Below, one piece after another: positions 6,681 to 62,892 of a stretch of 64,000 nt of DNA; position 1 is the stretch's first letter; the number at the start of each line of letters is the position of its first letter. A model generated the notes under the pieces. That model was not told the DNA's origin. It ran no database searches and saw only the letters and a list, made by a program, of their open reading frames with translations. This stretch comes from Nannochloropsis oceanica. Lineage: Eukaryota; Sar; Eustigmatophyceae; Eustigmatales; Monodopsidaceae. The stretch lies in contig CP038132.1 in the NCBI GenBank assembly GCA_004519485.1, positions 429,001 through 493,000 of the forward strand, read 5' to 3'. The position numbers were made by a program, and so were the translations under genes.

Positions 6681-6844
6681 ATGTCTCTGTATCAGCGTTT
6701 GCGTGTGTATACCCATGTATTTCTCATTCTGCCCTCCCCTCCCCTTCCCGCCTCCCCACCTGATGACACCACTATCGACCTCCCCTTAATTTTTCCTTGA
6801 TACATTCCCCCTCAACCGAAAAATAACAGAAGCACAAGACGGGG

Positions 6845-6941
6845 TCAGTCTGGCAGCAACGAGACCAGGATAAGCGCCAGGGCGTAGTGGGGGAGGCCAA
6901 GAATCGATTTGCGCACAAGCTGGGTGGTACGGGCGACATTG
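6845..6941 (-). CDS. Possible 3' exon of a small membrane protein
   Basis: A minus-strand exon candidate begins after a CCCCGCAG acceptor and reads VNVARTTQLVRKSILGLPHY followed by ALALILVSLLPD and a TGA stop. It looks like the amphipathic and hydrophobic tail of a small membrane or tail-anchored protein. I could not find a convincing upstream exon; several donors exist between 7,200 and 7,620 but none gives a recognisable protein. No family is assigned. Confidence 0.25.
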
Positions 6942-6947
6942 ACTCTG

Positions 6948-7901
6948 CGGGGCGGCGGAAAAAGCAGGGGTAGTGATGGGAAGGAACAAAGACGGAAGGC
7001 GGGAGGCGGGGGGTGGCGGGGTTGTAGATGTGCGCGTGGTGCTATAGCAATACATGTACGGGGCAGGAGAGGGAGGCACATATGAACAGAACAGCGAGAA
7101 GACTAAGACATGATAGGAAAAGCATTTTTTCTTCTTTAAAAAAGGAACAGGCAAAGAAGACGAACCAAGAAAGAGTTTTGCTTTGCACCGTTCGGGGAGG
7201 TCGGCATTGGGTGTGCCCATAAATATGGGGAAACGGCTTGTTGGATACTCCCCGTAGCGTCGAGAGCAAGAATGAGACCCACAAGACGGTTTCGTGTGCA
7301 TGGTGGTGCCCCGCATTTGAATCTTCCAATGCCCAGCGGCTTCGGAACTTTGGGGCAGCATGAAGCATGTGCAGCATGTTGATGGGTACTTAGACGGCTT
7401 GCGACAAAAATGCTGGCTTCTCCTTGAAAGCGTCGGCTTCAAGACACCTCGCCGAGTGCGAACGCGTTCTCCACCTGCCCATGCAATGACCCGAATGTCA
7501 CACCCACCTTTGTGCCCACACACAGGCGTAGACATACAAGCATCGTTGTCAACACCGTTTGTTAGTGAGCAACGGCAGAGATCGGGCGCAGCGGCAGCCG
7601 CGCCGTCATGTTGAGCATCATTAAGCATCACTTTGGGCTGCCGCCCACGACTTGCCAGCGTCGTCGTGTGCAAGCCCTCTTGGCAATCACATTGAACAAA
7701 CCATGTGCATGGCAGAGCTTTATTTCTCTCTCGGTACTTATTCTTTGCTCCCCTACTTGCTCTCCAAACCTTGACACACAGGCTCCGCAGGGCTCGGACT
7801 GGACGAGAGGCTTTCGCTTGCCGCCCCTGCCAGCGGAGATCCCCGTACCAAATACCAAAAACACTCGACTTTGCGCACACCGCCGATCAGTAGGCCGTAC
7901 A
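6948..7901. other. Unassigned region upstream of the GH1 gene
   Basis: Contains the promoter and leader of the GH1 gene and, probably, unresolved 5' exons of a minus-strand gene. A 364-codon open frame spans much of it on the minus strand but has a low-complexity Cys/Arg/Ser/Pro composition and no family resemblance, so it is not called. Confidence 0.3.
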
Positions 7902-12035: not shown

Positions 12036-14185
12036 CTACTCATTCAAAGACTGATAATCCATCACCTGCATTCTCACCCCCCGCGCCTCTCCTTCCCCCT
12101 CTTCCTCCTCCTCCTTCTCCTCATCCTCCTCCTCCTCCTCCCCCCCCACGCCCTCATACGACACGTCCTCCATACCCAAACCATCATCCCCCTCCTCCTC
12201 GTCATCCTCCTCCTCCCCATCATCGTACACTAAAGACGGCACCGGCTTATACTTGGACGACGCTACACACCACCCTACCCTCGGCGGCAAGTTATCAGGT
12301 ACAACCCGCACTCCATCCTTCATATACTTCTTCCCTCCTCCCCCACGCTCGATTCCTTCCCCCCGCCACGGGTACCATGGGCAATTGGCGTAGTAAAAAT
12401 CCGTGTCCGCGCTCGTGCCCGGCTGTCTCCCTGCCGGAACGAGGCTTAAATACCATCGCATACCGCCCCTCTCCATCTCGCACCGGTAGAGACACAAAGT
12501 CGGCTTTTTCGCCCACAATTTTCTTCTCTCTTCCTCTACATCCCGGTCACAATCCGCGCTGCAGTCATATCCTCCCACCCGCCTATACCAGAATGCGTCA
12601 TTGACCAGCCTCTTTCCAATCAAATACACACCATTCACCTCCGGGACCCCCGCGTCCAACACTCGAATCTGCCTCGGTGGCAAATCATAAGGAAGCGATT
12701 CATCATCACCGTCATCATCATCTACCTCCTCCTCCTCCTCCTCCTCCTCATTCTCACTCAAATCCTCAAACCCGCCCTCCTCATACTCATCCTCATCCTC
12801 ATCCTCCCCCCCATAATTCTCATCGCTCTCTCTCCCTTGTACGCCTCCATACGCCCTTGCGACCCCACCCATCCGTCCTCCCCCCCTCCTCACCCCACCC
12901 CTCCTCCCTGAATCTCTTCCTCCCCCTGTTCCTTGTCCTCCTCCCGCTCTTCCTCCCCCCCCCCTCTCATTCACCATCTGAGACAATCGCGCAAAGTCAT
13001 CCTCCCTTCCCATAACCTCACTCATCCCCCTACTCACACTCGGACACTCCCTCACCAGCTCTTTAAGAATCGGCTCAATGTGATTCCTAAAAAACACCTG
13101 CCCCATCACCAGCATCTGTCTCTGGTTCCTTACTTCCCCACTCTCCCTCCCTCGTGCAGCGAGCGCATCAAACCGTGCCAAGGCAACAGCAAAAATGCCT
13201 TCTCCCTGTCCCCAAAGCACTTCACTCAGCCTCTCCCCTTCCAAGCTATCTTTTATGTTGACCAGGGCACATAAAAAACAGGCGATCGCCGAGTAGCTCG
13301 GCGGGACGTGAAGCGAGGACGTGGAAGAGGAAGAGCAAGTAGAAGGAGGGGTGGGAGTTGGGAGGGGCACCGACACGGAGGGCATGGCAGCCGAGTGGGA
13401 AGGAGAGAAGGGAGGAGGAAGAGGAGGATAGGAACGCTGCAACTCCGCGAGCATCTGCCCAATCAAACACCTTGAAGTCACTATATCCTCCCTGGCAACC
13501 CTCTGCAGAATTGACACCACCTCCTCCCTCAGCACCTCGACCATCGGCACGTAAAAAGCCAGCATTCCCAGCGCCAGCCGACTCTTCACCGGTAACTCCA
13601 CCTTGCCGCCCTTCTTCTTCCCTCCCTCAGGCCCGCCTTCCTCCATCTCTTCTTCCTCCTCCCCTTCCTCCCTCCTTCTCCTCCTCTTAAGATCATTCCC
13701 GAACCCACTTGCACCTAGGTCATGCCAGACGGTCTTGGCCTGCCACTGTGCTTGATCCCGGTAGTAGCTTAAAAAGCCTCCAAGGGTCAAACGGTTATCC
13801 ACCTGGCTTTTGGCGTATTTGGCCATGATATTCTTCAAAGTGAATTGAGAAACCTGCTGCTGATACTGCTGCTGGTTGAAGCCACCACCGCCGCCCATCC
13901 CTCTTCCTCCCCCTCTTCCTGCCCCCAGACTCGCGCATTTTTCTAAGTACTTGGCCAGATCCTGCATGCCTATCCCTCCCTCTCTCGAATTCTCCTCAAA
14001 AATGATTGTGAACGCCTCGCGTGCCGCCATAGTCAACCCTTCCCCTCCCGCTCCCCCGCCCTCCCTCCCTCCCTCCCCTGGTGTTTCCAAAAGAGGGGCT
14101 TTGGGAGTTTGAGGCACACCAACCAAGGTTGCGATTGCTTCGACCAAATACAAATAATCAGTGGCGCTGTGCGGAGGAGAGGACG

Positions 14186-14217
<32 letters not shown>

Positions 14218-17200
14218 ACGCGAAGGGGGGAAGGATGGAATGTGGGGGAAATGGGATGACCGTGTCTGTCTCCGCCGCCTGAAGGGGATCTGGGAGGAGG
14301 GAGAGGGGTCGGGGTGACCCCAATGGTGGACACAGCAGCGCCCATAGGAAGAGGAGGAGCAGGCGTGAAGGAGGAGGCATAGGGGAATTCTAATTTCAGA
14401 GCAGGCGCGGCGGCGTCACCCAGGACGTACATGGCCAGATAAAACACAAAGTCCGCTTTGACTAGGTAGGCACGGATGGCCTCTGACCCCCGGGCGACGT
14501 CCCGAAAGAAGAGGAAGAGCTCATCGATGTGTCGCCAGTGCTTTCCGTTCGTGTTGGCGTCCTTGAGCAACTCCCCGACTGTTTCCAAGAAGGGTGCCAC
14601 CAGACTCGACGCCCGGGCTTCTGCCACCGTGGCATGGGCCAGTAAACGGATCTCTTCTTCCCGCGCCGCCACAGCTTCAACCGCCGTCACCACCAGGAGC
14701 AACACACATTGACGGGCCGTACAATCACTGCACTCCAAAAAGTACCGCCGCAACCAACTCGTCCGCCTTTCCGCCTTCGCTTCCTCCATCGCCTCGGAGA
14801 CAGGGAGGGAAGGAGTGGTCATCACCAGCGCCTCCAACAACCACGGGCCCACCTGAGAGTCTACCTTTATTGCCAGCCTGAGCAGATTCATCCAGGCATG
14901 TACTCGCGGCCGATCTCTCGAATGCAACATCACGTCCAGCAGGAACGAGATGCCGATTCCAATCACCTGCCGACGCAAAGGCGCGAATTCAGTATCGGAG
15001 GGATCCCATAAGAGCTTGCTCTCTCCCGTCTCTGCTGCTGCTGCTGCTGCTGCTGCCGGTGATGTGCTGTTGCTCTGAAAAAGGTTGGTGGAGTTGTTGA
15101 GCGCCGAGGACGGGGCAGGGAGGGAGGGTCTATAGACGAGTTGGAGCAATTCGGTCAAGAAGGAGTGAAATTGCAGATCGAATAGGTACCGGTGATAAAT
15201 AAATGCGACATTGGCATGCCATACCTCCTCCTCAAAGGCTGCCCGTCCATCCAATCCGTACTCAAAATCATTATCCTCTTTCCCAACAGAAGACGCAGCG
15301 GCAGCTGCCGGGTCAATACTGCTGCTGCATTCTCCTCTTGGACTCACGACCATGGAGCTGCCCTCGTCCTCACCCATCGTCTCGCCCTTTCTCTCCTCCT
15401 CTTCCTTCGTCTTGATTTTCTTAGATCCTGTCTCGGTGGCCCCAATCCCTTCGCTTTTCTGCCCTCCTCTTCCTCCATTTCCTACTCCGACTACCTCCTT
15501 CCTCTCCCCCTCCTCCTTCTCCCCCTCATCGGCGCCTGCAACACAAGCAGCGGCGGCAGCGGAGGCACCACGTGGTCGGACTTTCTCGTAAAAAAGCATC
15601 AGGGCATTATGCACCCTCTCCTGCTCCACCGAGCTCACCACGCCATTCCAACTCGTCGTCGTTTTCAGGAAAGTCCCTCCGAAACATTGATTTTCGAGCC
15701 AAGCGGGATCAAAGTCACTCACGTCTTCATCGTCGAATTTGTACCAGCAATCTGGCCGTTGCCTGTCCTTGATATAACTGTAATAGTGTCCCCCCTGCGC
15801 AATACCTGCGTGAATCACCACCCCCTTCAACTCATAATCGTACTCCCCCTCCTCCAACACCAATGGCACCTCTTTCAGACTCCCCAGCCGCCCCTCTCCC
15901 TCCCCCTTTCCCGTCACAGAAACAGAGTCATAAATCTTGTCCTGCTCCAGCAGGAGCTTCGCTTGCTCCGCCTCCTCTAACCCCTCTCTGGTGTAGGGCT
16001 TCACATTCAGCCTCATGGGGAAAGCACATCGATTGTTCAACTTGACTGTCTCAAATGTGCTAAAATCCAGATCGAAGCGCTTCAGATGCAGAATCAACAG
16101 ATTCGGCAACGCACCTAGGCAAATCCTCCTGACCGTTGGCTTCTTGGTGTTGCAACTTTCGCACTCAACCTGATTCTCCCCATCCATCAACTCCCCCTCC
16201 ACAAACGCCGCAAGCGATTCCTCGATACTCTCCTTCCCTTTAATAATTAACTCAATCTTAATGAACGGCTCTTCCCGTTCCGCGCGATGCTCACACCCCT
16301 CGGGTATCTTCTGATAAGCAAGCTTCCCGCCAAAACACCCAAATTCCAATTCATCCCTGTGCTTAGTCCCTTTCAAAGCAGCCTCAAGAGAATCTAGCAA
16401 TTTATCGCAAAACTCCGAAGCGTCGTTCTGCTGGTACACAGAATAATTAAGATTCAGACACTTGCAAGCTTCCACCAAATGCCGAGGGTCAAAATAACGC
16501 TTTTCACTACTGGCGAGATAGCAGAATGTACGTTGCATCTGTTCCAGCACCCTTTGTGCTGACTCGATCTCCTGAGCTTCCGACAAGGAGCAATGCTTCG
16601 GCGGGGGAATAATGTGAAAGATACACGACTCCTTCCCCATCCTCTCATTCCTCAACCTCACCCGTAGCCCTTTCTCCTTATCCCCCATGCCCTCATACTT
16701 AATCACATGCTCCCTCGTCCTCTCCTCAAAGCCAACCACGAGACCCTCCCTCGCTCTCTTCCCTCCCTCCCACTCCACCAACACGCGGTGCCCCACCAGC
16801 TCAGCATCCGCAGTCTTGTCCCCAGATACCAACCTCCTCTTCTTCACTCTCGCCGCCAGCACCGATTCTCGCAGCCTTGGAACCATGAACAATTGCTGCA
16901 AGAGAGAATTCATATAACACGTACAACCCTGATTCCTCAACCCCACATACTGCCCTGGATGAAGCTTCGCCTCATGTGAGCACTCATAAAACCAACATTC
17001 CCTCAGCCCCTCGCTCCCTTTCTCGATCAACATGGCCACTTGCTCCGCCACTTGCTGCAGCCGCCGGGGACACTGGCGCGCTCGTGTCAGTAGGGTGGAA
17101 AACACTAGGTCGCGTGATTCCTCTTGCCCCGCGGAGCAGAGAGGGCGGTGGGCGCCTCCAAATTGTTTTTGGAGGGTAGGGACGGTGAAAAGAAAGTCGG

Positions 17201-20200
17201 AGAAAGCTTTGGGAATCATGTGGTGGGTGTCGAGTGCGGTGGATTGGAAGAGCGTCTGGTCGCAGTCGGTTTGCACAAGGCTGTTGAGGAGACGGAGGCA
17301 GCCGAGAAGGAAGTGAGGGGGACTGCTATTGTTGCTGATGTTGCTGGTGTCCCCGTTGGACTTTATGTGGTCGTTGCTGCTGCTATCACTGCTGCTGTCG
17401 CTGCTGTCGCTGCTGCTGCTGCTGCTACTGCGGGGGTAGAGTGTCAGACGCTGGGAAACCAGCTTGGCGAGCGCTTGGACCAGGTCGACCTCTCCACCAG
17501 TGGGAGGAATAGGTGCTCTTACCGTCGAAATTGAAGACTCTCCCCCCGCCGAGCCCCCTAACCTCCTCCTCCTCCTGCTGCTGCTGTTGCTGCCTGTCGA
17601 GGAGAGCTGTTGGAGGACATCGAAGAACTGTTGGCAGGTCTTGCAGTCCGCTTCCAGGGTATCGAATGCTGCAATACACCAGGTGAAGGCAGAGTGACGA
17701 AGGAGAGGAGAATGCATGGCAGTGGTAAAGATGAGGGTGCGAGTTTGTTCGCGGACTTGTACAAAGGGATTGCGGAGGAGGAGACCAAGCAGGAGAGAGG
17801 GAGTGGTGGTGTGCATCAGGAGAGAAGAGACAAGGTCGCCACCATTACTATGGCTGCTATTCCTGCTGCTGTTGCTCGCCTCCTCTGCCACTACTGCTGC
17901 CGTCGCCATCTCCTCGAGACACGAGTCTACCCCTGCTGCTGCTGGTGGTGGTGCTGGGCTCGCTGGCCCTGCACCGCCCTCCATCGCCGGCTGGCGTAGC
18001 AACATCTCGATCAACACCAGGGCATCCACTGTCACTTCCCATCCCGTCTGTCTCTCCTCTTCCTCCCTCAATCCCTCCCTTTCTCTTCCTCCCTCTCCTC
18101 TTTCTCCTCCCCCTATTGCTGTTGATGCTGCTGTCGCTGCTACTGCTGATCCCGCCCTCGTAGATATGGCTGCCTCGTGAGTTTCAGCTAATATTTGAAT
18201 GAGGCGGTTCAAAAGCTGTCGAAGCCTCTTTTCTCCTCCCAACAGCTCGGTTGGAATGAGTGTTTTGACCGTTGCTGCTGCTGGTTCAGCTGCTACTTCA
18301 GCTGCTGTTTGTTGCCCGGTTTGAGGAGAGGATGCAGGTCGGTCAATACCAATTGTAGCATTACTGTAGCTACTGCAGCTGCTGCTGCTGACGACGACCT
18401 CTCGCTCCATCCCTCCCATTTGCTGCACTTGCTGCTGCCCAAACATGACGAACTTGACAATCCTCAAAGCCACGGCCGTTGCCATGTGTTGCACCATCGA
18501 CAAGGGCAGGTCCTTCCCTTCTGTCTCTTTTCCTCCCTCTCTCCTTTTGCTGGTGCTACTGTTGCCGCTGCTGCTGGTGCTTGTCCGCATCAACACGTCA
18601 AACACATGCGAGAAGCCGCCCGTCTGTAGAAACAGAGACCGGAATTTATTCGGTTCAATGATGGAAAACATGTCAGGGTGAGAAGCAACGTCCTCGCAGG
18701 GTTGCAGTAGCGCATCGACTATTTGCATGGAGTACACAGCACGATGCCAGGCAGAGGGGGAGATGAGGGTCGACCACGAGGGAGGGAGGGAATGCGGGGA
18801 AAGTGGGGTAGGAGGAGAAGATTTCGGTCTCCTGGTGGAGGAGAAATAGGAGGAGGGAGAGACGGTGGCTGCTTGTTTGACAAGGTTCAAAGCGTGTTTT
18901 TGAGTGGGGAGGGCAAGAAGAAGGCTCCAGATGAGGTTGACTATGCCGACACCACTGCTCCTGCTACTACTACTGCCGATAATACTGCTGCCACTTTCGT
19001 TATTTCCATCGGGAGGAGAGATCGCGGAGTAACGGGAAAATGACGAAGAGGAATAGACAGAGGAGCAAGAAGAGGAGGAGGAGCAGCACTCCAGCAAATC
19101 AAACAAAATCGAACAGTACTTCTCCTCTTGAGAAATAATGTCGTCAATAGCAGCGGCTTCACCAGCACCAGCAACAGGAGAAGCTAAAGGACCAGATGCA
19201 ATAGCCTTCCCCTGCATCGTTGTTGTCGTCGTCGTTCTCAATGAGGCCTCCATAGGCAGCTGCGGCGGCTGCTGCAGTGGCTGCGGCAGTGCCAGTAGTG
19301 GTTGGGTATCCCCAACTGGGGCAGCAGCAACAGAAGTAGGCTGCGGAGAAATTAAGCCTGCTTCTGCACCGTCCTCCCCTTCTATCATTCCCTGAGGCCG
19401 CTGTTGCATGGCAGGGTGAGGAGCGGGTCTAGCGGCGTTGGCGTCGCTCTTTTCTGCAGAGCATTCCCCTGGGGAAGAGGTCGGCAAAGGAGAGACAGCA
19501 GCCGCGTCGATGGAGGTTGAGGGCTGCTCTCCTTCCTCTTCCACCGGCAAATGAGATGGTCCATCTTCAGTCACGTCGCCTGCAATTTGCGGCGGTGGTA
19601 AAGACTGAGGTTGAGGGAGGAAGGCAGGGAGGGGTGGCAAGTTGCTCCCCGTGGCTTGAGGGGGGAGGGTTGGAACAGCTTTGTTGAAAAGGTAGGCGGA
19701 GACGTGGACGGGGTCAGGGAGGGAAGCAGGGAGGGCACCGAAGGGGAGGTCAAATTGATTGAGATGTCTGGGGAGAGAGGGAATGACGAGGCGGATTTGC
19801 TGGTGGGGGGGAAGGGAGGTTTTTGTGGCGATGCGACGGCGGAGGACAGCAATGGTTTCAGATGGGTGCATGTAGATTTGAAGCGATGGGAGTTTGAGAG
19901 CAGCAGGGGTAGGAGTACTGGCCAAAATGGTGCTACAGCTGTTGGTTGGGGGAGGGGGGAGGATTCTGCGTGGTTCGACAACAACCAGGCGACGGCCGGC
20001 TTGTCCCCTGAGGATGTGAGGGATGGAGGGGTGAAGAGCTGCAGCGGCATCTGCGGCGGCATTTGCGGCCGTGTTGGGGTTATTTGTCTGGTCGTTATCG
20101 CTGTTGTTACTATTGCCGCTGCTTTTGCTATTGCCGCTGTTGCTATTGCTGTTGCTATTGATGTAGCTACTGCTGGAGCCGATGGCCCCTTGGATGAGGC

Positions 20201-22037
20201 GGAGGCAACGCTCAGCTTTGAGGATTGTGTCTTGGGACTCCTGTGAGGGAACAGAAAAGGCAATGCTACCGTTGCTGCCATCGCTACCATCGATGCTGCT
20301 GCTGCTGCCATTAAGGGTTGATTTAGATGGAGGAAGGGAAGGAGAAGGAGGAGGAGCAGGAGCAGGAGCAAGAGAAGATGCGAGCATTGCGCGGCATGCA
20401 TCCAGGTTCTCGAAGACACGTTGAAGGAAGCGGAGGCGACGTTGAGTCAGTGAGATTCCTCTTTTTTTCCTTTCCTCCCATCCTCGCCGTGATTTTTGTT
20501 GCCTTGGCTGCTGCTGCTGCTTTGGTTGTTGCTGTAATAGTATTGTGGGTGGTAGCTGAGGCTCATCCATCACCGCCGTCGTAATTGCCTCACTTTTCTC
20601 CCCTTCCTCTCCTCCTTCACTCTCAACCCTTTCTCCGCATCTTCCTGTGTCTCCTTTTTCTCGGTCCCCGTACACAGAAAGCAAATCCCGTGTCGCTGCC
20701 TCGGCCACCGTCTGCGTGCGTGCCGTCAGAGCAATTCGCCAGAGCGCATCCAAACCCACCGCAAAGGTTGCCTCGTACTCCCTCGCTTCCTTCTCCTTCT
20801 CTTTCTTCTTATTCTCCTTCTCGTAGTGATGCTCCGCCTGAGTAGCAGGAGGAGGAGGAGGAGGAGGAGGAGGAGAGGCAAGGGGAATAGGGTTCACCGC
20901 CGCCTCCTCCCCATCCTTCTTCTCCTCCTCCTCTTCCTCCCCCGCCGCCACCAGAGGATGCTGTGTAACCTCCATCCTCTCTTTCTCCTCTTCCTCTTTT
21001 TCTTCCTCCTCCTCCTCAGCCTCCTCCTCGGATTTCTCCCATTGTCTCAACGCCGTAAAGTAGGTATTGAAACATCCGTAGGCTTCTTCGCCTAGGCCCG
21101 TCCAATCCGCCCGCTGAGAGACAAGATCTTTGAAAGCCGCCCACATCACCTCTGGTGAGAACGCCAAGGGCATCAGGCCCCATTTTGCTGCTGTCGAAGA
21201 AGCAGCGACAGCGGTAGCAGCAGTAGGAGTAGTCGGAGTAGGTTTGTCGTCTCCAGAAAGAGGAGAAGGGAGGGGACGACAGCATTCCGACAAGAAGAGG
21301 AGGAACACGTTTTTTTCGGCGGGTGAATCCAAGACATCCCACAAGACCACGAGTTGGTCGAAACTCAATTTCACAGCATCTGCGTGTGAATGCACGTACC
21401 GAATAACATCCAAACGAAGCTTGACCCTCTCTAACAGCACTGCTGAAGGCGCTGCTGCTGCTGCTGATGCTGGGGATGCTGCTGATGTTCCAGTCAGAGT
21501 GGCTGGCACCAGTGGAGGCGGCGTCATGCCGGTACCAGAGGGAGAGGCAAGTATTGCTGCTGCGCGTTGTTTGAATGCTCGGAGCTCCTTAAAGAGGAGG
21601 GAGGGGAGGTGGTTCCGCTCCGTGAGGACTTGGAGGGCGACAGGGAGATCGAGAGGAGGGTAGACCTCCAGGAGAAATTGCGCCATGCGCAAGGCAGTGA
21701 TAGTTTCTTCTTCATCGAAAGCTGAGGCTGGTGTTGGAGAGGAGTGTGGTGGTGGATGCTGATGCCGTGGCTGCTGTTTATGCTGCTCGTGGTACGTGGC
21801 TTTTGTCCCTAGCCCCGGAAGAGTAGCAAGTGGGGCAATGGACAAGTCGCCTACCCCTGATGCTCCTACCGCTCCTCCTCCTTGTCCTCCTCCTGCACCA
21901 CAACTTCCTGTTGTGGTCGTCATTGCCGATTTCTCAATCGTTCCAAAGCATATACTCAGAAATCTGGCCGGTCTCTCCGTACCCGGTAAGGCCTGTAACG
22001 CCCATGCGAACAAATCCATCACCACCTTTATCCCTCC

Positions 22038-22073
<36 letters not shown>

Positions 22074-22098
22074 TTGTTGTTGCGGCTGTTGCTGTTGT

Positions 22099-22149
<51 letters not shown>

Positions 22150-24440
22150 TCTCTTATCCCTGGGTGCTGCAGTACCCCCCACAAGAGCTCTAGGAGGCTG
22201 TCTATTCCTTCCTCTCCGTTGAGTGATGCAAATTCCTCAACTTTTATCATCAAGGCTAGCTTTTCAATAAAAGCAAGAGCTTCGCCTAGGGCCCCTTGTT
22301 CCCTCACCGATCGTTGAATGATGTTTCCAAACAAATGCTTTGTCAAACTCGGGCTCAAATGTAGAGGTATTAGTCCCGCCAATGCACCATGGCACTCCCT
22401 CACTAGCTCCGCCTCCTGCTGCCCCAACCCCGCCCTCCAAAGCTTCTCCAGGTGTGCTCCCGTCAAACCATTCATCAGACCCATCAGTTTCAACAACCCC
22501 CCCGCTCGACCCACCACCTCCCTATGCATGCTCGGGCCAAGCAACTCATCCTCCACAATCCTCTTCTCTAGTGCCCAGCGGACCACCTGGTGCTCAAGGG
22601 AAGATTCCTCCATCCCTGCGTCCACAAGCGGATCGAGCCTCTGCAGAGTAGGGGGCGGATCCACCCCCTTCCCCCCGCCTGAACTAACCGTGTGCCACCC
22701 CACCGGGTGCGGTTCGTCCTGCTCTCGGAACAGCGATCGGTGCTGGTAATAATCCACATCCTTATCCGTCCCTGGGAGCGCGGGATCTGCCTCACTAATA
22801 AACCACCATTTGGCCTTACTCCGCATCGAGCACCGAAACAGTGTGAAGAGAACCCCGTCATCCTCTCCCCCTGCCCAATGCTGGTACTCCGGCGCAAAGT
22901 TTCTCTCCCTGACGAAGGTATAGATGCCATTCACCCTCTTCACCCCCGCGCCTTTCACTAGGTACCTCCTCGCGAACGGACGCGCCTCCTTCGCGATCCG
23001 ACATATGTCCCCAAGTTGCTCCCACGCAGACAACCGCAACGGCAACGACGAACTGCGGACAAGCGCATGCACAAAGGCTAACCAAAACTGTAGCAATATC
23101 TCCTGATCCCCATCCTCCTCGGCATCACTTAACTTCTTCCTCGTGTAATCCACCATTGCCGAGATTGACAACCCCGACTCCTTCTTCAACTCCTCCTCCC
23201 CTACCCTCTCCAAAGGCTCCCTCAAGCATGCCACAACCTCCTCTAATACATTCTCAGTCGCTCGGGCCATCGTTTGCGCCACGGCCTCCCATCCCTGTTG
23301 CTGACCTTCTCTCACCCTCTTCTCCCTCTCCATTACCTCCTCCCGCCCCTCCATCACTGCCTGGAGCAAGACCTTGGTATTCTCCGCCCCCAACCACCCA
23401 ATACTCCTTGCCCTCATCGTACGGCACAGTAAGTCGAACCCTCCCCTCTCCACGAAATCTGCCTCCAACCTCATCCTCATCTCATTCGGCGACACGGCTC
23501 CGTGCCAGTAACCTCCCACCCCCTGCCCCTTGTAGAATGCCCTCTTGCGATTGAAAATCATGATCAGCGTCGGGATAAACTCGGCCTGTTGCCTCTCCAT
23601 GGCCAACACTAAGGTGTGCAAAGCCCAGCACAGCGAGCTATCAATGCACGTCCTCTGGTGGGGCTCGATCCGGAGTGCATTTTGATCGAGTAAAATCCCC
23701 ACAATTTGCTCCAAGTGTGCCTCCAAGAAAGACTGTGTCACAGGATTATCATAATTCTCATAGGCTAGACGCATACAATTCACTGCGTTATCCCATCCCA
23801 CGCTAGAGGCTTTGATCAAGCCCTCAATCACGACCTGAAACAAACCTAGGGAGGTACGTGGCACCTCCTCCTCTTGCTGCATTGTGGCACCTTCCTCCTC
23901 TTCTTCCTCCTCCTCGTCCAAGTCCTCCTCTTCTTCCTCCTCTTCCTTTTCTTGTTGTTTTTCTTCTTCTTCCGTTCCCTCGCCTTCTTCCTCTCGCTTT
24001 TCCTCCCCGACTATGTCCGCTAGTACAGGACGTGGCGGCGGAGGTAGTGGACGCGACTGTTGGCGCGGGCGCGGTGGAAGAGGCGGTTGCTGTTGCTGCT
24101 GCGGGAGAGGAGGTGGAGCTGCACGAGATCTCAAGGTGCCAGTTGAGGGTGGAGATGTTGATGAGGGGACGAGGCTCTGGTGCTGCTTTGGTGAGTGTTG
24201 AAGCGGGTGCTGGTGCGGCGGCGGCGGCGGCAGCGGCTGCGGCCCGCCGCTGCTACTGCTATTGTTGCTTTTGCTGCTCCTCGGACCGCTGCTGGTTGTG
24301 GTGCTTTCAATATTTTCGTCCGCCTCGTCCACGGACGGACGGCGTCGCTTGTTTAGGGCCCGCTGTCCGGTCCTGTACGGGTTTGTTTGAAGAGAGGAAA
24401 CAGGAAGGGAGGGGGAGCCGTGGTTGATTGGTGGTCCCAT
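12036..24440 (-). CDS. Giant ubiquitin-specific protease (USP9X/USP24/USP34-like)
   Basis: One uninterrupted 12.4-kb reading frame encodes 4,134 residues from the ATG at 24440 (MGPPINHGSPSLP); the frame stays open for 30 more codons upstream, but those look like leader sequence. The catalytic domain has the Cys box GLRNQGCTCYMNSLLQQLF with Cys2508 and the His box GGHYYSYIKD with His2885, the hallmarks of a C19 deubiquitinase that cuts ubiquitin-protein isopeptide bonds. A long helical N-terminal region, a ubiquitin-like segment at about 1515-1560 and large C-terminal helical regions fit the very large USP9X/24/34 group. Extra features are a polyGln tract at about 765-800, many Ser, Asn, Glu and Pro runs, an EF-hand-like stretch near 3475-3500, and two copies of a VNGxY-type domain at about 495-600 and 3920-4070. 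Predicted to act in the cytosol; substrates are unknown. Lack of introns over this length is unusual beside its intron-bearing neighbours. Confidence 0.9.
22043..22146 (-). repeat. (CTG)n tract encoding polyglutamine in the giant USP
   Basis: On the + strand CTG repeats, broken by TTG, CGG and TGG units, encode about 35 Gln with a few Pro on the minus strand. A shorter pure CTG run of about 9 units lies at 14191-14217 in the same gene. Confidence 0.9.
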
Positions 24441-24879
24441 CTTCTCCTGCACGGTGCCACACGCACGCGCATGCAGGTACACAGTTACAATCACTATAGC
24501 CGCGTGTCTACGCGCACACATGCCGCACACACATATGCCTCCGTCGCATGCCAGCCCCCCAATATTTCCCTCCCCTCACGTACCTCTCTTCGTTCTCACT
24601 AATTTTTAACTCCGGCCCTGAGGCGCATACACAATTATACAAGTCCGACCCCCCCGCTCGCCTGGCTATGGTGATAATAGTGTGATCGACAAAGATGATA
24701 TGTGAGATTGATCGCTGTAGACACAAGATAGGATGCATGTTGCTGCCGCAATTGGAATCGGAAAGGGGGAGGCATGAGGAGAGGGTGAGGTCCTCATACC
24801 GAGGCCTGTCCCGCCCCGACACATTAGGCCAGCGCTCCCTCTCTCATTCTTTTATGCTCTTGCAGTGCGCTCGCGCACC
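24441..24879. promoter_or_regulatory. Divergent promoter region between USP and NDUFAF3 genes
   Basis: About 440 bases separate the USP start (minus) from the first ATG on the + strand. No core element could be named with confidence. It is assigned as a promoter only because both flanking genes point outward. Confidence 0.4.
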
Positions 24880-43937: not shown

Positions 43938-44685
43938 AGTTTAAGCCGTGTCTGTGGAAAGGAGGAGAATGAAAAGGGTAAATGATTGGGTGAGTAAATT
44001 ACAGGTGCGTCGATTCGATCGCAGCACAGCTTTGTCCCGCCTCGGAGACCGAGGGCGTCGCAACGGTAAAAGTCAAAATTGGCCGACACCAACAGTACCG
44101 TCCCTCCTAAAAGAGGCGCCTGGAAGGCTCTCGAATGGTGCCTGCCGCTTTCGCTAATCCGAAGGACCGATTTTTGCCTGAGGTAGAGAAGGTGGAGGCC
44201 GCGTGGGTGGTGTAATAAGGCAGGATTCCGCAGAGATCGCTCAATCCAGGGGGTTAAGAGTCATACTGCCAATTCAGCGCAGGCCAGAGACAACAAAGTA
44301 GCCAGGCAGACGAGGGACAAAAGCTTGCACTGGCAGGCACGCGCGGTGGCCTAGCGAAGCTGGCGGGGCATGATGCTTTGACCAGAAGCGGAGGCTGGGG
44401 CAGAGAATGAAAAGTGTGCCCGTCTCCGGGAGGGAGGGAATAAACATCATGAGAGTTAGAATGGTAAGCTAGGCAGGAAAGGATATTATCAACCAAGGCA
44501 ATGGTATGCACCTTGACTGCCTCACGTAGAGGGTCGACCGTTCCGAGGTGCCCTTTTATCGCTGACGTTCACGCTGCGGCCTTCAGCGACAAGCACGGAA
44601 GTGATGCAGAAATTGTGTCTGTCTCATGTTCCCTCCCCCCCCTCCTCCTCCCACGACACACACGACACAAGACACAAGCATCATC
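43938..44685. promoter_or_regulatory. Divergent promoter region, ZIP transporter / sedolisin peptidase
   Basis: 748 bases between outward-facing starts. No ORF with family features, tRNA or repeat was recognised, and no core promoter element can be named. Confidence 0.4.
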
Positions 44686-46661
44686 ATGCGAGCCACCAAG
44701 TCGCTGCTGCCGCTGCTGCTGCTCCCCTTGCTGCTGCTGGTATTCGGTGCTGCTTCGTCTGCCTTCCATCCCTCTGCGCCGACGCAAACCTCGGAACACT
44801 ACAAGAACGAAGGTCGCATCCGCCTCGAGCCTGATGTGCCTGAACACGCTTTCGGTCGAGCCCGGCACTTTGTTCGTGAGTGCCGTGTCACCCCCACGGA
44901 CATGCTGCGTCTGCAAATCGTCCTTCGGCACGATCCTGCGGCGGTGGCGCTATTGGAAGGCACGCTCCTTGCCGTTTCTGATCCGCGGAACACGCGCTAT
45001 GGACAGTACTTGAGCATCAACGACATCACAGACATGGTGGGCCCTGATCCTTCTCATGCAGAGGCTGTGCGCGCTTTTTTGTTGGCCAACGGTGTCCCTC
45101 CTGTTCACATAGAAGTGAACAAGAACCGAGACATCATCACAGTGCGACTCCCCGCCATGCTTGCAGAGGACATGTTTGAAACAATGCTGTATCGCTTCCG
45201 ACACACGGCCAAGGTGGAGGCCTCCTTCATCCGGGCTATCAATTCTTACAGTCTTCCTGCGTCCATTGCTCCGCTGGTTGCCTTTGTGAGTGAGCTGATT
45301 CGCTTTCCCGCCATCCGCGATCTGCCTTTTGTGCCCGTCCCCCACGCTGCTACTGCTTCATCTTTTTCTTCCGGCTCCAAATCTGACGACTCCCCCTCAG
45401 ATGCAGCATTCCAAGCCTGCGGCCATGAATGCGCTGGATACATCACGCCACAAGTGCTCTCCGAGAGATATAATCTCCCCGCCTCCTTGGCAGATCCATG
45501 CGCGAGCAACAACTCGATTGCGCTGGCGGAGTTCCAGTTCCAATATTACGATCGGAGAGATTTGTTTATTTTCGCGAATACCTGTGGGGTGGACTCGGTA
45601 TCGGTGGAAAAAAATTACGCGCATAACGCCGCGATTGTTTGCACGAGAGGAGGAGGATGCATTGAAAGTTTACTGGATATTGAATGGGCGAATGTGGCGG
45701 CGGGTGGAGGTGCCATTCCTCTTTCCGTTTACTACTCAATGCAATACAGCATTTTGGACTGGGTGACGGCCGTGAATGACAATGACGACGCGGAGCTTGT
45801 GCATTCCGTGTCATATGGCAATGACGAGCTGCAACAAACTTCGACTGAATACATGTTAAGTGTGAATACCGAGTTCATGAAAGCAGGTGCTCGGGGAATA
45901 TCTATATTTATTGCCTCGGGCGACCAAGGCGTGTATGGAAGAGAGGGGCCGGGGAATAGCATTTTCCATCCTGATTTCCCTGCCTCTTCTCCCTGGGTGA
46001 CAAGCGTGGGAGGGACAGATTTCGTAACGCCGTCGGTAGTGGGGGAGGAAATGGCGTGGTAAGTTTCATTTGGGTTTGGGGGGAGGATGGAAGGAGAAGG
46101 CGCGTGTTGGTGCTTTCGATTTGTTCGACTCGGGTCAGGTCTCACCCATTTTTCTTCCTGTTCCTTGGTTCCTATCACATGCGAGACAGGGAGGGTTCGG
46201 GCGGCGGTTTTAGCAATACCTTCGGCACTGCCTCTTGGCAAGCTGCTGCCGTTGCGCAATACAAAATGATCGCCGCTGAAACCTTGCCTCCCTCGTTTAT
46301 GTGGAACGCCACTGGAAGGGGGTATCCGGACTTGAGTTGTTTAGGGGGGAGCGGGAATGCCTACTGCGTGAGTGCTGAGGTAGGGTCCCTGGCAGGTGTG
46401 TGGGGAACAAGTGCATCCACACCTGTGGTGGCTGGGATGTTTGCGCAGTTGAATAATGTCAGATTACATGCCGGGTTGCCTCCGATGGGGTTTGTCAATC
46501 CATTCATTTATCAGAATATGGATTGCTTCTTCGATGTTGTCAAGGGGGTGAATGACGGGGGCTTTAATTTTGGCTTTACGGCTGTAGAAGGGTGGGATCC
46601 AGCGACGGGTGTAGGGACGCCTGATTATGCAAAGCTTAAGGAAAGGGTATTGATGGTTTAG
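44686..46661 (+). CDS. Sedolisin-family serine peptidase (tripeptidyl-peptidase 1-like)
   Basis: Two exons, 44686-46058 and 46190-46661, give 614 residues. Residues 1-26 (MRATKSLLPLLLLPLLLLVF) form a signal peptide. A pro-domain runs to about residue 215 (LVLRHDPAA-type strand, RNTRYGQYLSINDITDMVGP). The peptidase domain carries the S53 catalytic set: Glu327 and Asp331 in CIESLLDIEWANVAAGG, the oxyanion Asp413 in FIASGDQGVYG, and Ser532 in WGTSASTPVVAGMFAQLN, followed by the calcium-site region near DVVKGVNDGGFNFGFTAVEG. Members are acid peptidases; animal TPP1 releases tripeptides in lysosomes. A vacuolar or secreted acid peptidase is inferred. The exon junction falls in the W-E-G-S-G-G-GFS stretch conserved in the family, which supports the splice site. 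It converges with the PhnP-like gene. Confidence 0.92.
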
Positions 46662-58287: not shown

Positions 58288-61200
58288 CTACTTTATCGCA
58301 ATCTCTTCCATCCCATCCAACCACCCACCTTTCACCACTCTGGTTGCCGCCTCCGGTTTCTCTTCCGCCAACTGCTGCTGTTGCTGCTTTTTTCTCTTTT
58401 GCTTTACACGGGCCTTGGTTTGGGCTTGCTCGTCCTTGATGGACGGCGAAACCATCACCTCAACATCTACATTCCAAACGTCCTCCTCCTTTACATTGAG
58501 CGACACGCCGCCGCCGCCTCCGCCGCCTTTGATCGGGCTACCGGCAACGTCGTCATCTTTTCCTTCTTCCTCTTTCTCTTCCTCCTCTTTATTCTCAAAT
58601 GCAAGCTGCTGCGACCGCTGCTGCTGCTTTTGCTGCCATTCCACATGCATTTCGTGCCTTTCATCAAGTGCAACCCTACTGACATCCCCCTCCTTCACCA
58701 CCTCGTCCACAAAATCAAATGTATCCTCCAATTCAAATGCGGCCAAATCCTGCAAGATAACAATGGCCGTGTCAATCCCAGTACTATGTCCCTCAAATTG
58801 ACCGTCGCCCCCCTCCTCCTCCTCCTCCTCACTCTCTCCATCCTCCCTTCCCCCCTGCACCATAGCCCTCAACAACTTCCCCACCCTCGCTCGTCCGGCG
58901 CCGTCCAGATGATTCAACACTTCGTCAAGCACAATCAAGTTGCAATCCACTCTCGAGCGCAATCGACTAAGTTCCCTAAAAGCCATCAATGCCGCCAGGC
59001 TCGCCCGTCGCCACTGGCCCCCCGACAAATGCGACAAGGAACGATCAAGGAACACTCCATCTCCTCCCCTCACCTTCACCTCTTTCACAATTTTCTCCCC
59101 ATCCAAAGACAATCCCAATCTCAACCCCCCCTCCGACAAGATAGCCAAGAATCGATTCGCCAGTCGCTCCAGCTGTGCCACCGCCCCCCGCAACACAAAC
59201 GCCTGCACGCCCCGCATCCCAAATCTCTCGATTAAAGCTCGCAAAAGCAGTGCCTTCTCCTCTTGCTCTGCCTGTATCGCACGGATAGCTTCTAAGGCTT
59301 CTCGTGCTTTCGTCAGCTCTTCTCGTTTCTTGCCGAGGCGCTTGCGTATTTCTGATGCTACTCGTTCCCGGGCTTGGAGCTCGGCCGCTTGCTGGATCAA
59401 ACGAGGTCGTTCGTCCTGCAACTTGTTAAATTGCTCCTGCAACGTCCGGAACTCTCGTTCTCTGTGAGCAAGCTCGTCCACCGGCTGGTCTTGTCGTTGG
59501 CCGGGCTGCACTTGCTCTTCCTCCGTCCAGAGGGGCACGCCTTCTCCCTCCGCAATCTCATTCTGGAGCTCCACAAGCTCCCTGCCCCGGGTTTGAAGCC
59601 GCTGACAGAGCGCCTGCCAATCACGGACGTCGCGCAAATACTGTACGTGGGATTCAACCATCCGCGTCAGCACCAACTTTTGCTTCTCCAACCGGGGTTT
59701 CTTTTCTTCAGCCTCCATGAGTATCAAGCGGCACTTCGCAATTTCCCCTTCTAAATGACTGATCGCCTTGGCTTTTGCGTCCACCCCTCCCTCCTCCCAC
59801 GCTCGCCCACAAGTCGGACAACCATCCACCCCTTCCTCTTCCTCCTCCAGACCCTCCCTTTTTTCCCCCATTACCAAAGAATTCAACGCTCCCTCCACCT
59901 TCTTCAAATCCCCCCCCGCCGCCCCAATCTCCGCCAAGCACTTTGCCCTCTCCGCCTCCACCGTCGCTACTTTCTCCTGCCATTCCTCCACCCGCACGTG
60001 GGCTGCAAACGCCAATCCCAACGCAGGGTCTATCGTATCCTCTTTCCCTACCACCCCCCAGCGTTGCGACTCTGCCCAGTACAGATTCGGATCCCACCGA
60101 TCCTCCAGTACTGCCACCGCCTGTTTGTCCTCCTCCAACCCCACCTGTAAACTACGCAAACGCTCTCTCCGGATCCCGGCCGATTGGCCCGCTTCCGCCT
60201 GCCCCCTTGCCCATTCCTCCCTCCTTTCCAAGCTTTCTTTCCATGCCGCCCTTGCCTCCTCGACCTGTCTGCTCAATTTTCCTAATTCCATCTCGACTTG
60301 GTCCAACGTGCGAATCGTGCAGCCCAGTAATTGCGCTCCTCCACTGCTGCCACTACTACTGTTGTTGTTGCTGATGTCCGTCGACAACAATTCGAGCAAC
60401 TCCGCCTCTTCTAGTTCCTGCCTCTCCAAATCCAACTCACACACCCTCACCTGCGTCTGTGCATCCAATCCCTGCTCTACGTAGCCCTTTGCCATCTTTT
60501 TCGCCGTCTCTTTCAGATCCTCCCACACGCCCAGTCGCACGATTTTTGACAATCTCTCTTTTAGCCTCACGTCTGTTGCTTCCAACAAACCATTCATCTG
60601 GTGCTGCCCACAGAAAATCGCTAAGCTCAGAAAGTCCATGTCCAATCCTAGGGCTTCTTCCATCGCACTTTGCGTGTCTCTACTCGTCTGCCTTGTCAAA
60701 TCCTCCCCGTCCAGAACAAATCTCAACTGATTCGTCTTCAACCCCCTCTTTCTGATTACCTGGAAGGGTACCTTATTCACAGACCCCCACAGAGTGACTT
60801 CTGCATACGCCGCCTTTCCCCTCGACAGAATATCAAACGCTACATCCGTAACCTTGGAATCCGTCACCGGTTTCTCATCCCCCTCTCCCGTCAATGCCCA
60901 TTGGGCTGCCATTGCCAGCTTCGACTTCCCTGCCGCGTTGCTCTCAGCGCCAGGATCGTCCATATTCTTTCCCCTGAGCAACACCAACCCCCGTCCTGCC
61001 AGCGGGTACTCAACTGCCTTCAGAAAGGGCCCATATCCCGCCACTTTCACCTTTTCAAACTCCAGTCGGACGGTACGCGTGGACCCACCCCCAGCAGTAG
61101 TAGGAGTGACAGCAGCCGCATGTGCGCTAGGCGAGATTGTTTCCCCCTTATCTGTCGATGCCTCCCACGCCTCAATCAACTGCATCCCACCCTCAAACAA

Positions 61201-62892
61201 TTTTTCTATCCCACAACTGCTGCTTCCTCCTTCTGTAGCAGTAGAAGCAGCACTCTCAGCCATATACGCCCTCCACACTGCAGTCGTCCCCAACGTCTCA
61301 AAATCCATTAGTCCTCCCCTTCCCTCCTTCCCTCCCTCACCTCCCATTGGCCCCTCCAACATTTCTCTCCCGCGAAGCCCGTCCTCCTCCTCAACCATCC
61401 CCTCCCTCACTTCCAGCTCAGCCTGAACAGTGGCGATTAATTTTGCCCTCAATCCATCTACCTCCTTGCTCATTTTCTCTGCGGCGTCCGGCATCAGATT
61501 TAATACGACCCTGTCCCCCTTGCGTAGATACCCTTCACTCAGTAACTCATATGCCGCGTCTAAAGATCGAGGACGAAAATATCTTCTCCCTACATCAATA
61601 TCAATGTCTCCTACTTCAGTCCAGGGTAGGCCAGGTCCCAGGGGACTCCGAAGGAGAAGAAAGCGCTTTCGCTGCCCTGCCTCTGCTAAGCTGACTTGGT
61701 ATGGTGAGCCTATGTAGGTAATGGAAGTGCGAGGCACGCGATGGGGCTTGTGGAAGTGCCCAGAAAAGGTAGGGAGGTGTGGAGGGAAAACGGATGGGCG
61801 GAGACCGCGCCGGGAAGCGGTGTTATCGTTCATTGGGGCCCCTCTAACGTCAACGTGGCAAAAAACGGCCGACACTAGAGCTTGGTAGTAGTCGTCGTCA
61901 TGCTCTCTTTGAAGGTGGTAAGGAGCGAGGACTGATCTTGTGAGAGCCGAATCGCGAGCGTATGGAAGCCATAGGGCGTTAAGGAAAACGGTTGGTCGAG
62001 TGATGACCACGGCTTGGCCTTGCAGGGGCCCTCCAGTTCCTCGTAGCCCCCCCTCCGACGCAGAGCCAACAGCGAACCCTAACGGTGTCAAGGCATGCAC
62101 AGCTCCATCTAAAGTAACTTGGTCATGATTCCCGGGGATGAAAATGACGGGTTGTGTCCATTTCCCAAGGTCGGCCATGATGCTATTGAGGAGGTCCACG
62201 CGAATCGCCCCGCGAATGTGGAAGAAATCGCCGAGGAATATGATGCCTGCCCCCCGGGCTTGCGCCTCCCGATGGACGTGCTTGAGGACTTCTAGACAAG
62301 TGGGAAGGGTTTGGATGCTGCAATGAAGGTCGCTAAAGACGATCCATTCCTGCGTGGCTGCGTGCATGGGGTGTCGGAGGGTGGCATCCATGAAATTGGG
62401 TTTGGGACCATCCTCGAAACGACTTGGAACCTGGTATGTGCTGTCGCTGGTGCTATCGCCGCCGACGCCGATACTGCTGTTACCAGTGTTACTTTTACTG
62501 TTGGATCTCGCCTCTCCCATCGCCATGGCGGTAGACGTCGTGGCTTTGGGGGCCAGAGTCTTGCTTTCCAGCTCCGTTAACGCAGCGCCGCGTATCGACA
62601 AGACACGGTCATTACCTTCTTCTTTGACCCGCAACCAGCCCTTGTTGGCCGACAGTACCTGTGCCTTGCGTCCCGAATCCTTGAGCAGCACCCATTCTCC
62701 TATGCCAATTGCTTGTTGCAGTAATCCACGTCGCCTTCCACCGCCCGCAACACTATCACGGGGTCCAAAAAAACAATGCTGCAGTAGCCGTCGGCTGCGG
62801 GCAAAGGAAGTCGTCTGTCTCGCCAAGACCAGCATTACCACCACTAGATGGACGAGCGGAGACAACGATGATAGGACCTGCAGTCTTACCAT
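58288..62892 (-). CDS. Single-chain SbcD-SbcC (Mre11-Rad50-like) nuclease/ATPase with organelle leader
   Basis: An intronless 1,534-residue protein from ATG 62892. The leader MVRLQVLSSLSPLVHLVVVM, then LVLARQTTSFARSRR, is a signal peptide with an ASAF-like TSFA motif, pointing to the plastid. A small beta-rich segment (about 65-105, EWVLLKDSGRKAQVLSANKG) follows. Residues 180-430 are an SbcD/Mre11-type metallophosphoesterase: FSDLH (Asp188, His190), GDFFH (Asp222, His225), GNHD (Asn255-Asp257), FCHVD and SGHFHKPH (His379, His381). Residues about 610-1380 are an SbcC/Rad50-type ATPase: Walker A GAESNAAGKSKLA (Lys656), a Q-loop-like FCGQHQMN, coiled-coil arms, zinc hook GCPTCGRAW (Cys1025, Cys1028), signature LSHLSGGQWRRAS (Ser1290) and Walker B NLIVLDEVLNHLD (Asp1323, Glu1324). 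The tail (1390-1534) is acidic and then Lys/Gln-rich. In bacteria and phages the two halves are separate subunits of an ATP-driven nuclease that trims hairpins and blocked DNA ends. A role in organelle DNA repair or copy-number control is inferred. Confidence 0.9.
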   Translation of the reverse strand: MVRLQVLSSLSPLVHLVVVMLVLARQTTSFARSRRLLQHCFFGPRDSVAGGGRRRGLLQQAIGIGEWVLLKDSGRKAQVLSANKGWLRVKEEGNDRVLSIRGAALTELESKTLAPKATTSTAMAMGEARSNSKSNTGNSSIGVGGDSTSDSTYQVPSRFEDGPKPNFMDATLRHPMHAATQEWIVFSDLHCSIQTLPTCLEVLKHVHREAQARGAGIIFLGDFFHIRGAIRVDLLNSIMADLGKWTQPVIFIPGNHDQVTLDGAVHALTPLGFAVGSASEGGLRGTGGPLQGQAVVITRPTVFLNALWLPYARDSALTRSVLAPYHLQREHDDDYYQALVSAVFCHVDVRGAPMNDNTASRRGLRPSVFPPHLPTFSGHFHKPHRVPRTSITYIGSPYQVSLAEAGQRKRFLLLRSPLGPGLPWTEVGDIDIDVGRRYFRPRSLDAAYELLSEGYLRKGDRVVLNLMPDAAEKMSKEVDGLRAKLIATVQAELEVREGMVEEEDGLRGREMLEGPMGGEGGKEGRGGLMDFETLGTTAVWRAYMAESAASTATEGGSSSCGIEKLFEGGMQLIEAWEASTDKGETISPSAHAAAVTPTTAGGGSTRTVRLEFEKVKVAGYGPFLKAVEYPLAGRGLVLLRGKNMDDPGAESNAAGKSKLAMAAQWALTGEGDEKPVTDSKVTDVAFDILSRGKAAYAEVTLWGSVNKVPFQVIRKRGLKTNQLRFVLDGEDLTRQTSRDTQSAMEEALGLDMDFLSLAIFCGQHQMNGLLEATDVRLKERLSKIVRLGVWEDLKETAKKMAKGYVEQGLDAQTQVRVCELDLERQELEEAELLELLSTDISNNNSSSGSSGGAQLLGCTIRTLDQVEMELGKLSRQVEEARAAWKESLERREEWARGQAEAGQSAGIRRERLRSLQVGLEEDKQAVAVLEDRWDPNLYWAESQRWGVVGKEDTIDPALGLAFAAHVRVEEWQEKVATVEAERAKCLAEIGAAGGDLKKVEGALNSLVMGEKREGLEEEEEGVDGCPTCGRAWEEGGVDAKAKAISHLEGEIAKCRLILMEAEEKKPRLEKQKLVLTRMVESHVQYLRDVRDWQALCQRLQTRGRELVELQNEIAEGEGVPLWTEEEQVQPGQRQDQPVDELAHREREFRTLQEQFNKLQDERPRLIQQAAELQARERVASEIRKRLGKKREELTKAREALEAIRAIQAEQEEKALLLRALIERFGMRGVQAFVLRGAVAQLERLANRFLAILSEGGLRLGLSLDGEKIVKEVKVRGGDGVFLDRSLSHLSGGQWRRASLAALMAFRELSRLRSRVDCNLIVLDEVLNHLDGAGRARVGKLLRAMVQGGREDGESEEEEEEGGDGQFEGHSTGIDTAIVILQDLAAFELEDTFDFVDEVVKEGDVSRVALDERHEMHVEWQQKQQQRSQQLAFENKEEEEKEEEGKDDDVAGSPIKGGGGGGGVSLNVKEEDVWNVDVEVMVSPSIKDEQAQTKARVKQKRKKQQQQQLAEEKPEAATRVVKGGWLDGMEEIAIK

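Follow-up and report, generated by a model that had tools for sequence, protein, structure and literature searches.

A single-chain SbcD-SbcC protein of Nannochloropsis oceanica, probably of phage-like origin and plastid-directed

One gene of Nannochloropsis oceanica encodes an SbcD-type nuclease and an SbcC-type ATPase in a single chain. It is probably a nuclear-encoded descendant of a phage-like gp47-gp46 module that was inherited together with plastids, and its product most likely goes to the plastid, where the ends of plastid DNA would be its substrate. In the window, by which I mean the whole 64,000-nucleotide stretch of DNA that was analysed, the gene occupies positions 58288-62892 on the minus strand as an uninterrupted frame of 1,534 codons plus stop with an ATG start (1,573 codons when taken as an open frame of the genome), and it is single-copy in the 29.26 Mb, 32-contig genome scanned. 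The chain opens with a leader and a small SH3-like barrel; next come a complete SbcD/Mre11-type nuclease and, carrying a CPTC hook, an SbcC/Rad50-type ATPase. The neighbouring genes look like ordinary eukaryotic nuclear ones, their products being an amino-acid transporter, a CREG-like protein, a ubiquitin hydrolase of great length and a PI31-like proteasome regulator. Within the window, ubiquitin C-terminal hydrolases are matched by an open frame of 4,164 codons (12036-24530, minus strand) that also shows a weak ARM match of the USP9X/USP24 type, and a Pro-kumamolisin activation domain at 44626-46062 (plus strand) perhaps marks an S53-type peptidase gene.

All parts of the protein are encoded on the minus strand. 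The nuclease (residues 180-432, 61597-62355) was delimited by profile matches, alignments and structure comparison. Behind it lie a capping-type segment (residues 444-497, 61402-61563), so named by analogy from the secondary structure of the model and the span of the SbcD match, and two predicted helices (residues 536-581, 61150-61287), which sit where Mre11 has its Rad50-binding helix-loop-helix and, by analogy, may play the role of that element (PMC3175470). The linker between the halves comprises approximately residues 582-607 (61072-61149; 28 residues, 582-609, in the alignment), with pLDDT below 50 at 584-604. The ATPase N-lobe, with Walker A and Q-loop, follows at residues 608-786 (60535-61071, from profile matches and alignments), and the coiled coil, predicted as long helices, at approximately residues 788-1215 (59248-60531), with the CPTC hook at residues 1025-1028 (59809-59820), both cysteines of which are invariant in alignments of 20 and of 38 sequences. 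The C-lobe (residues 1216-1412, 58657-59247) carries, according to the alignments, LSGGQ, Walker B, the D-loop and a glutamine at the H-loop, and a low-complexity tail (residues 1413-1534, with the stop 58288-58656) ends the chain.

The protein thus has the make-up of the Mre11/Rad50 (SbcD/SbcC) superfamily, namely a calcineurin-like nuclease with the full set of metal ligands, and ABC ATPase halves divided by a coiled coil with a CxxC hook. D222, N255, H256, H346, H379, H381 and K656 are kept in all 46 eukaryotic rows counted (the row of the brown alga stands outside this count), and D188 and H190 in 44 of the 46, the other 2 being gaps. The claim of the first-pass annotation that the motifs of a complete nuclease and a complete ATPase share one frame was correct, as judged from the catalytic residues, the CPTC hook, LSGGQ and Walker A and B. 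The nuclear pair of the same genome is encoded by separate genes, Rad50 (L087) on contig C4 and Mre11 (L088) on contig C2, and the Mre11_DNA_bind domain (PF04152) that, together with a separate Rad50, characterises nuclear MRN matches the genome at C2:951853-952230 only and not in the fused gene. With Mre11 and Rad50 located on C2 and C4, I rejected a duplicate of the nuclear pair as the nature of this gene.

The histidine expected as the H-loop switch of such ATPases is replaced in the N. oceanica protein by Gln 1381 (codon 58750-58752, minus strand). Among 107 alignable proteins, 92 have Gln at this place, 11 His, one Pro (Chromera) and 3 a gap, and the 11 with His are the 7 prokaryote-type fusions described below and 4 cyanidiophyte-type reds. 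P0118, which stands beside Galdieria in the quick tree, also has His, as does P0085, the end of which aligns poorly. His is found in all 24 viral rows, in E. coli SbcC and in the genome's own Rad50. I treat the Gln as variation inside the fold family, and it makes it less safe to assume that the ATPase behaves identically; my guess is that ATP would be hydrolysed more weakly or more slowly, and a possibly altered ATPase is counted against the preferred explanation.

Relatives were sought by a first search (20 proteins), a profile search (135) and a search with the prokaryote-type P0101 (17), which together returned 135 different proteins; eukaryote names were read among the 120 matches listed of the 135 from the profile search. 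On the green side the fusion is found in green algae, bryophytes and a lycophyte, among reds in cyanidiophytes, and further in diatoms, a brown alga, Chromera and a cryptophyte. The names include, for diatoms, Cyclostephanos, Skeletonema, Thalassiosira, Pseudo-nitzschia and a truncated label read as Detonula; for other red-derived algae, the brown alga Scytosiphon, an ochromonad, Chromera and the cryptophyte Hanusia; for reds, Galdieria and Cyanidium; for greens, among others, Chloropicon, Trebouxia, Chlorella and Volvox; and for streptophytes, among others, Sphagnum, Ceratodon, Physcomitrium, Marchantia, Riccia, Calypogeia and the lycophyte Diphasiastrum. Further label prefixes I take to stand for Euglena, Chlorokybus, Mesostigma, Spirogloea and Cyclotella. 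Every eukaryote named among the matches listed has plastids, and no animal, fungus, oomycete, ciliate or seed plant is among these names. The search for the same fusion in other ochrophytes, proposed in the first-pass annotation, thus found it in diatoms, a brown alga and an ochromonad. P0019, from Galdieria phlegrea, has an isocitrate-dehydrogenase-type C-terminal part (PF00180) and is perhaps a merged gene model.

The leader had been read as plastid-type, and this reading gains from its relatives. The signal-peptide-like start (residues 1-29, 62806-62892) has a hydrophobic core at residues 14-23 (KD 3.11), then TTS and, behind the presumed cleavage point, FA beginning with F30. Proteins of ochrophyte plastids are targeted by a signal peptide and then a transit peptide that starts with Phe (ASAFAP-like), and this is the pattern of the N. 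oceanica leader. In a list of 36 ochrophyte rows, based on names, search order and partly the tree, 35 have the nuclease motif and 29 a leader of at least 45 residues with a Met start; at most one acidic residue is found in 19 of the 29, and a strong hydrophobic core in 9. Directly after the core, [SGA]F is observed in 8 of these 9 rows, where shuffles predict 1.7 (p about 4e-6 if the rows are independent, and p = 0.002 for 4 of 5 after thinning of close relatives), in a test designed after the sequences had been seen, with the window tightened beside the core and a longer, hand-made list. An earlier, looser test with [ASGT]F did not discriminate (6 of 8 vs. 4.4 expected). The other 20 leader-bearing ochrophyte rows are without a strong core, and my guess is that they either count against the plastid or reflect wrong starts, many of them being metagenomic gene models with unsure starts. 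In the greens, 24 rows have the motif and 20 a leader of at least 45 residues with a Met start; none of the 20 has a strong core, and in 19 of them the first 40 residues include no more than one acidic. In 8 of 8 prokaryote-type fusions the nuclease is preceded by -1 to 17 residues. The red P0020, 7 of whose first 40 residues are acidic, has only 27, which also counts against the plastid. The type of leader is expected to differ between import across two and across four membranes, which predicts the change observed from greens to ochrophytes. These leader statistics are the main evidence for the plastid location, and they suggest that the leader most likely sends the protein there.

Alternatively, the single-chain SbcCD may work in mitochondria or in both kinds of organelle, not solely in the plastid, which I consider unlikely, if worth serious attention. 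A signal-peptide-like start with [SGA]F, as seen in the ochrophyte members with a strong core, fits import into complex plastids and not into mitochondria, and the restriction of the named eukaryotes to plastid bearers likewise argues against this reading. However, the leaders of Galdieria and of some mosses, Arg-rich and not hydrophobic, look mitochondrial as much as plastid, and putative dual-targeting sequences are frequent in the core enzymes that replicate organelle DNA in the green lineage, according to the sections of a review drawn on here (PMC4166229).

Ahead of the nuclease, the ochrophyte members and the row read as Euglena have in common a GDxV...GW...R unit, which in N. oceanica belongs to the SH3/PWWP/KOW-like barrel (residues 65-107, 62572-62700). 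It is predicted as five strands with a pLDDT of about 95, and among the families displayed by a structure search, PWWP, KOW and SH3 barrels were matched weakly (best E 1.6e-3, no match at or below 1e-3); a Pfam search for a name gave only matches below the cut-off, of differing kinds. The row read as Euglena, with its ochrophyte-type barrel, falls among the ochrophytes in the quick tree, which fits a gene taken from an ochrophyte.

Two trees were made. The quick tree (80 rows, 623 columns) contains 53 of the 135 returned proteins, the N. oceanica protein, 24 viral rows, E. coli and the genome's own nuclear pair, the rows being picked by hand for breadth and length; the careful tree has 66 of these 80 rows and omits the nuclear pair, T4, E. 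coli, L084, L020, L026, L025, L050 and L018 as well as P0123, P0107, P0116, P0105 and P0118, so that the cryptophyte and Euglena rows are placed in the quick tree only. Cyanobacterial SbcCD, the fusions of giant viruses and that of Dictyostelium are absent from all trees. In the quick tree, 47 eukaryotic rows stand together (support 96), as do the greens (95) and the eukaryotes with the prokaryote-type fusions and phage L012 (100), the reds are not joined to the red-derived algae, and long branches lead to the nuclear pair, to T4 and to E. coli. In the careful tree, 42 eukaryotic rows form one clade (95/93), with the greens at 100/99, streptophytes and chlorophytes placed as expected, reds plus red-derived algae at 94/95, and the red-derived algae, like ochrophytes plus Chromera, at 100/100. 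The eukaryotes, 7 prokaryote-type fusions and L012 are united at 100/100, the prokaryote-type fusions adjoining the eukaryotes (90/81) and L012 lying just outside. The N. oceanica protein falls within the ochrophytes, where its position beside the brown alga is weakly supported (88/47). When the halves were analysed separately, the eukaryotes stayed together in each (84 and 82). The nuclease half alone did not recover the greens as one clade, nor the ATPase half alone the prokaryote-type fusions, and reds plus red-derived algae were supported at 91 and 10 by the nuclease and the ATPase half, respectively. This last grouping is not decisive: forcing the greens together with the red-derived algae without the reds gave p = 0.115, and if the grouping holds, it would imply that the H-loop changed twice or reverted.

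That unrelated algae repeatedly acquired such genes laterally from viruses or plasmids, without a special tie to the plastid, as was proposed earlier (PMC3175470), I find distinctly improbable. Similar fusions do occur in viruses, a phage, plasmids and Dictyostelium (PMC3175470), and fused frames in viral contigs and models of viral proteins point the same way. However, all 42 eukaryotic rows of the careful tree, from which giant-virus sequences are absent, form a single clade, and AU tests, on groups defined once the tree was known, speak against a separate descent from the prokaryote-type group (ochrophytes and Chromera forced with the prokaryote-type fusions, p = 0.024; greens likewise, p = 0.045). 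The trees support, without proving, one old origin and descent with plastids over the scattered transfers of the 2011 proposal.

The prokaryote-type relatives (P0101, P0127-P0130, P0063 and P0082) are fused and leaderless, and no host was found for them when looked for. The search with P0101 gave one named bacterial match (P0135, Chloroflexota, E 5e-12), and scanning bacterial and archaeal genomes with exact short patterns yielded one weak Chloroflexota locus from 49 pattern matches. In IMG/VR, 57 of 119 pattern matches encode a relative. Frames with both halves fused were detected in viral contigs (L014-L019; L023 repeats L018, and L013 is cut by the contig end), and these six are the viral rows, out of 24, in which the D-loop Asp is changed to Gly; they are a separate branch of fused viral SbcDC. 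In L012, also from IMG/VR, gp47 precedes gp46 at 3965-7071 with an overlap of four bases (ATGA), a layout from which a fusion could arise; the pair belongs to a phage recombination module of SSB, a UvsX-like recombinase, gp47, gp46 and a RuvC-like gene. Scans of viral contigs with P0101 and P0129 confirmed no relative, and one with query A3 gave 13 loci, of which the 12 examined all have separate gp47 and gp46 frames and are more distant. The matches listed from phage and plasmid records are mostly separate genes, of less than 60% identity, and none covers 80% of P0101 or of the N. oceanica protein in one place. With Foldseek, models of viral proteins aligned over the whole length, including those of Harvfovirus, Tupanvirus, Tetraselmis virus 1 and a Listeria phage (a whole chain of 1,009 residues), none of them a row of the trees; TM-scores were low, at 0.28-0.45 for those named.

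A cyanobacterial source, in which sbcD and sbcC of the plastid ancestor were fused after their move to the nucleus, would explain why the distribution tracks plastids and why the order, D then C, is that of the bacterial operon. I nevertheless regard it as very unlikely, as the nearest relatives found are the leaderless prokaryote-type fusions and phage L012, in trees that do not include cyanobacterial SbcCD. In addition, the protein matches phage profiles (PHROG_77, E 2.3e-54; PHROG_100, E 7.6e-21) far better than bacterial SbcD/SbcC models (TIGR00619 sbcd, E 5.4e-4; Rad50_Halo, E 1.2e-4, both below the cut-off), in libraries that were built differently and are of unequal breadth.

An assembly or gene-model artefact joining two genes is hardly credible and was rejected, given the single frame and the full-length relatives P0001, P0002 and P0003 (99%, 71% and 73% identical). 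Both halves are also evident in one chain from GNHD with an [LF]SGG[QE] signature in 103 of the 135 proteins, and from GNHD with a P-loop in 122. The single polypeptide first proposed is thereby upheld, and among the relatives found the halves are not encoded apart, nor does the genome contain a second copy.

If the protein works as the SbcCD/Mre11-Rad50 complex does, two chains would pair through their ATPase heads and hooks with the two tethered nuclease domains sitting on the heads, and ATP-driven closing and opening of the heads would allow cleavage of DNA ends, hairpins or blocked termini by the nuclease. Its gene would descend from the phage-like gp47-gp46 module, fused before or upon entry into a plastid-bearing ancestor, and would have passed down the green and red lines and then, with secondary endosymbiosis, into ochrophytes, Chromera and cryptophytes. 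The enzyme sent to the plastid would process DNA ends and structures there, apart from the nuclear Mre11-Rad50, and may act on the inverted repeats or hairpins named in the first-pass annotation. A more detailed history, quite possible though short of probable, is that a phage-derived single-chain nuclease was acquired very early in plastid evolution, inherited with plastids and carried into complex plastids, that its H-loop changed from His to Gln, perhaps giving a slower clamp, that ochrophytes added the barrel, which would bind DNA or protein, and that the gene was lost toward seed plants.

If true, this would be the missing factor that resects ends and cuts hairpins in the chloroplasts of algae and bryophytes, similar in kind to the phage-type RNA polymerase and the TWINKLE helicase of plant organelles. 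In the sections of two reviews drawn on here, it seems undecided which factor opens the broken ends and hairpins of chloroplast DNA (PMC8383295, PMC4166229): the 2021 review assigns, in a hypothetical model, MRN to the nucleus and RecJ/RecQ to organelles (PMC8383295), and in those of the 2014 review of organelle replication enzymes the term SbcC is absent (PMC4166229). With a conserved, probably plastid-targeted SbcDC, a specific gene could be deleted in moss, Marchantia, green algae, diatoms or Nannochloropsis-like algae, and a natural tethered SbcCD would become available for structural work. The plastid-lineage account would also replace that of sporadic lateral transfer, and can be tested with more sequences.

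Compared with E. coli SbcCD and nuclear Mre11-Rad50, the N. oceanica protein has the same domain folds and catalytic residues, whereas those are two polypeptides of distant sequence. With gp47/gp46 of the phages T4, SPO1, A511 and L012 it shares the CxxC hook and the order 47 then 46, with L012, SPO1 and A511 also the SNGxGK-type P-loop (NGGGK in T4), and its best profile families are the phage PHROG_100 and PHROG_77; the phage proteins differ in being encoded by separate genes, in having no leader and in their His at the H-loop. The prokaryote-type fused SbcDC show the same fusion, with a linker of 9-11 residues, and adjoin the eukaryotic clade, but are likewise without leader and with His.

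The N. oceanica protein shares one clade (95/93) with Physcomitrium P0041, with the named diatoms and with rows that I take for prasinophytes, a comparison of organisms rather than of published accessions. The protein most likely belongs to the moss-diatom-prasinophyte group described in 2011 by Yoshida, Claverie and Ogata, who reported Mre11/Rad50 fusions in eukaryotes, among them Dictyostelium, which has no plastid, and in viruses, a phage and plasmids (PMC3175470). This rules out that the fusion is unique; the first-pass annotation erred in taking Mre11/Rad50-type proteins to be otherwise always separate, as the family is widespread. Alike are the nuclease half first and the ATPase second in one chain, the separate nuclear Mre11 and Rad50 alongside, and the grouping of the Physcomitrium and diatom proteins with that of N. 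oceanica, while the latter differs in its signal-peptide-like leader, its SH3-like barrel and the Gln at the H-loop. Yoshida and co-workers read the distribution as sporadic and due to lateral transfer, which differs from descent with plastids; the main text of that paper has no words on plastid, chloroplast, organelle, endosymbiosis or targeting (PMC3175470), and among open-licence PMC papers (a scope without subscription papers and preprints) no title or abstract links the fusion with plastids. The Mre11/Rad50 fusion as a kind, including that of mosses and diatoms, is thus already known, and what appears to be new is the plastid reading, the single-clade tree with its phage-like neighbour, the changes of leader and H-loop, and the ochrophyte barrel.
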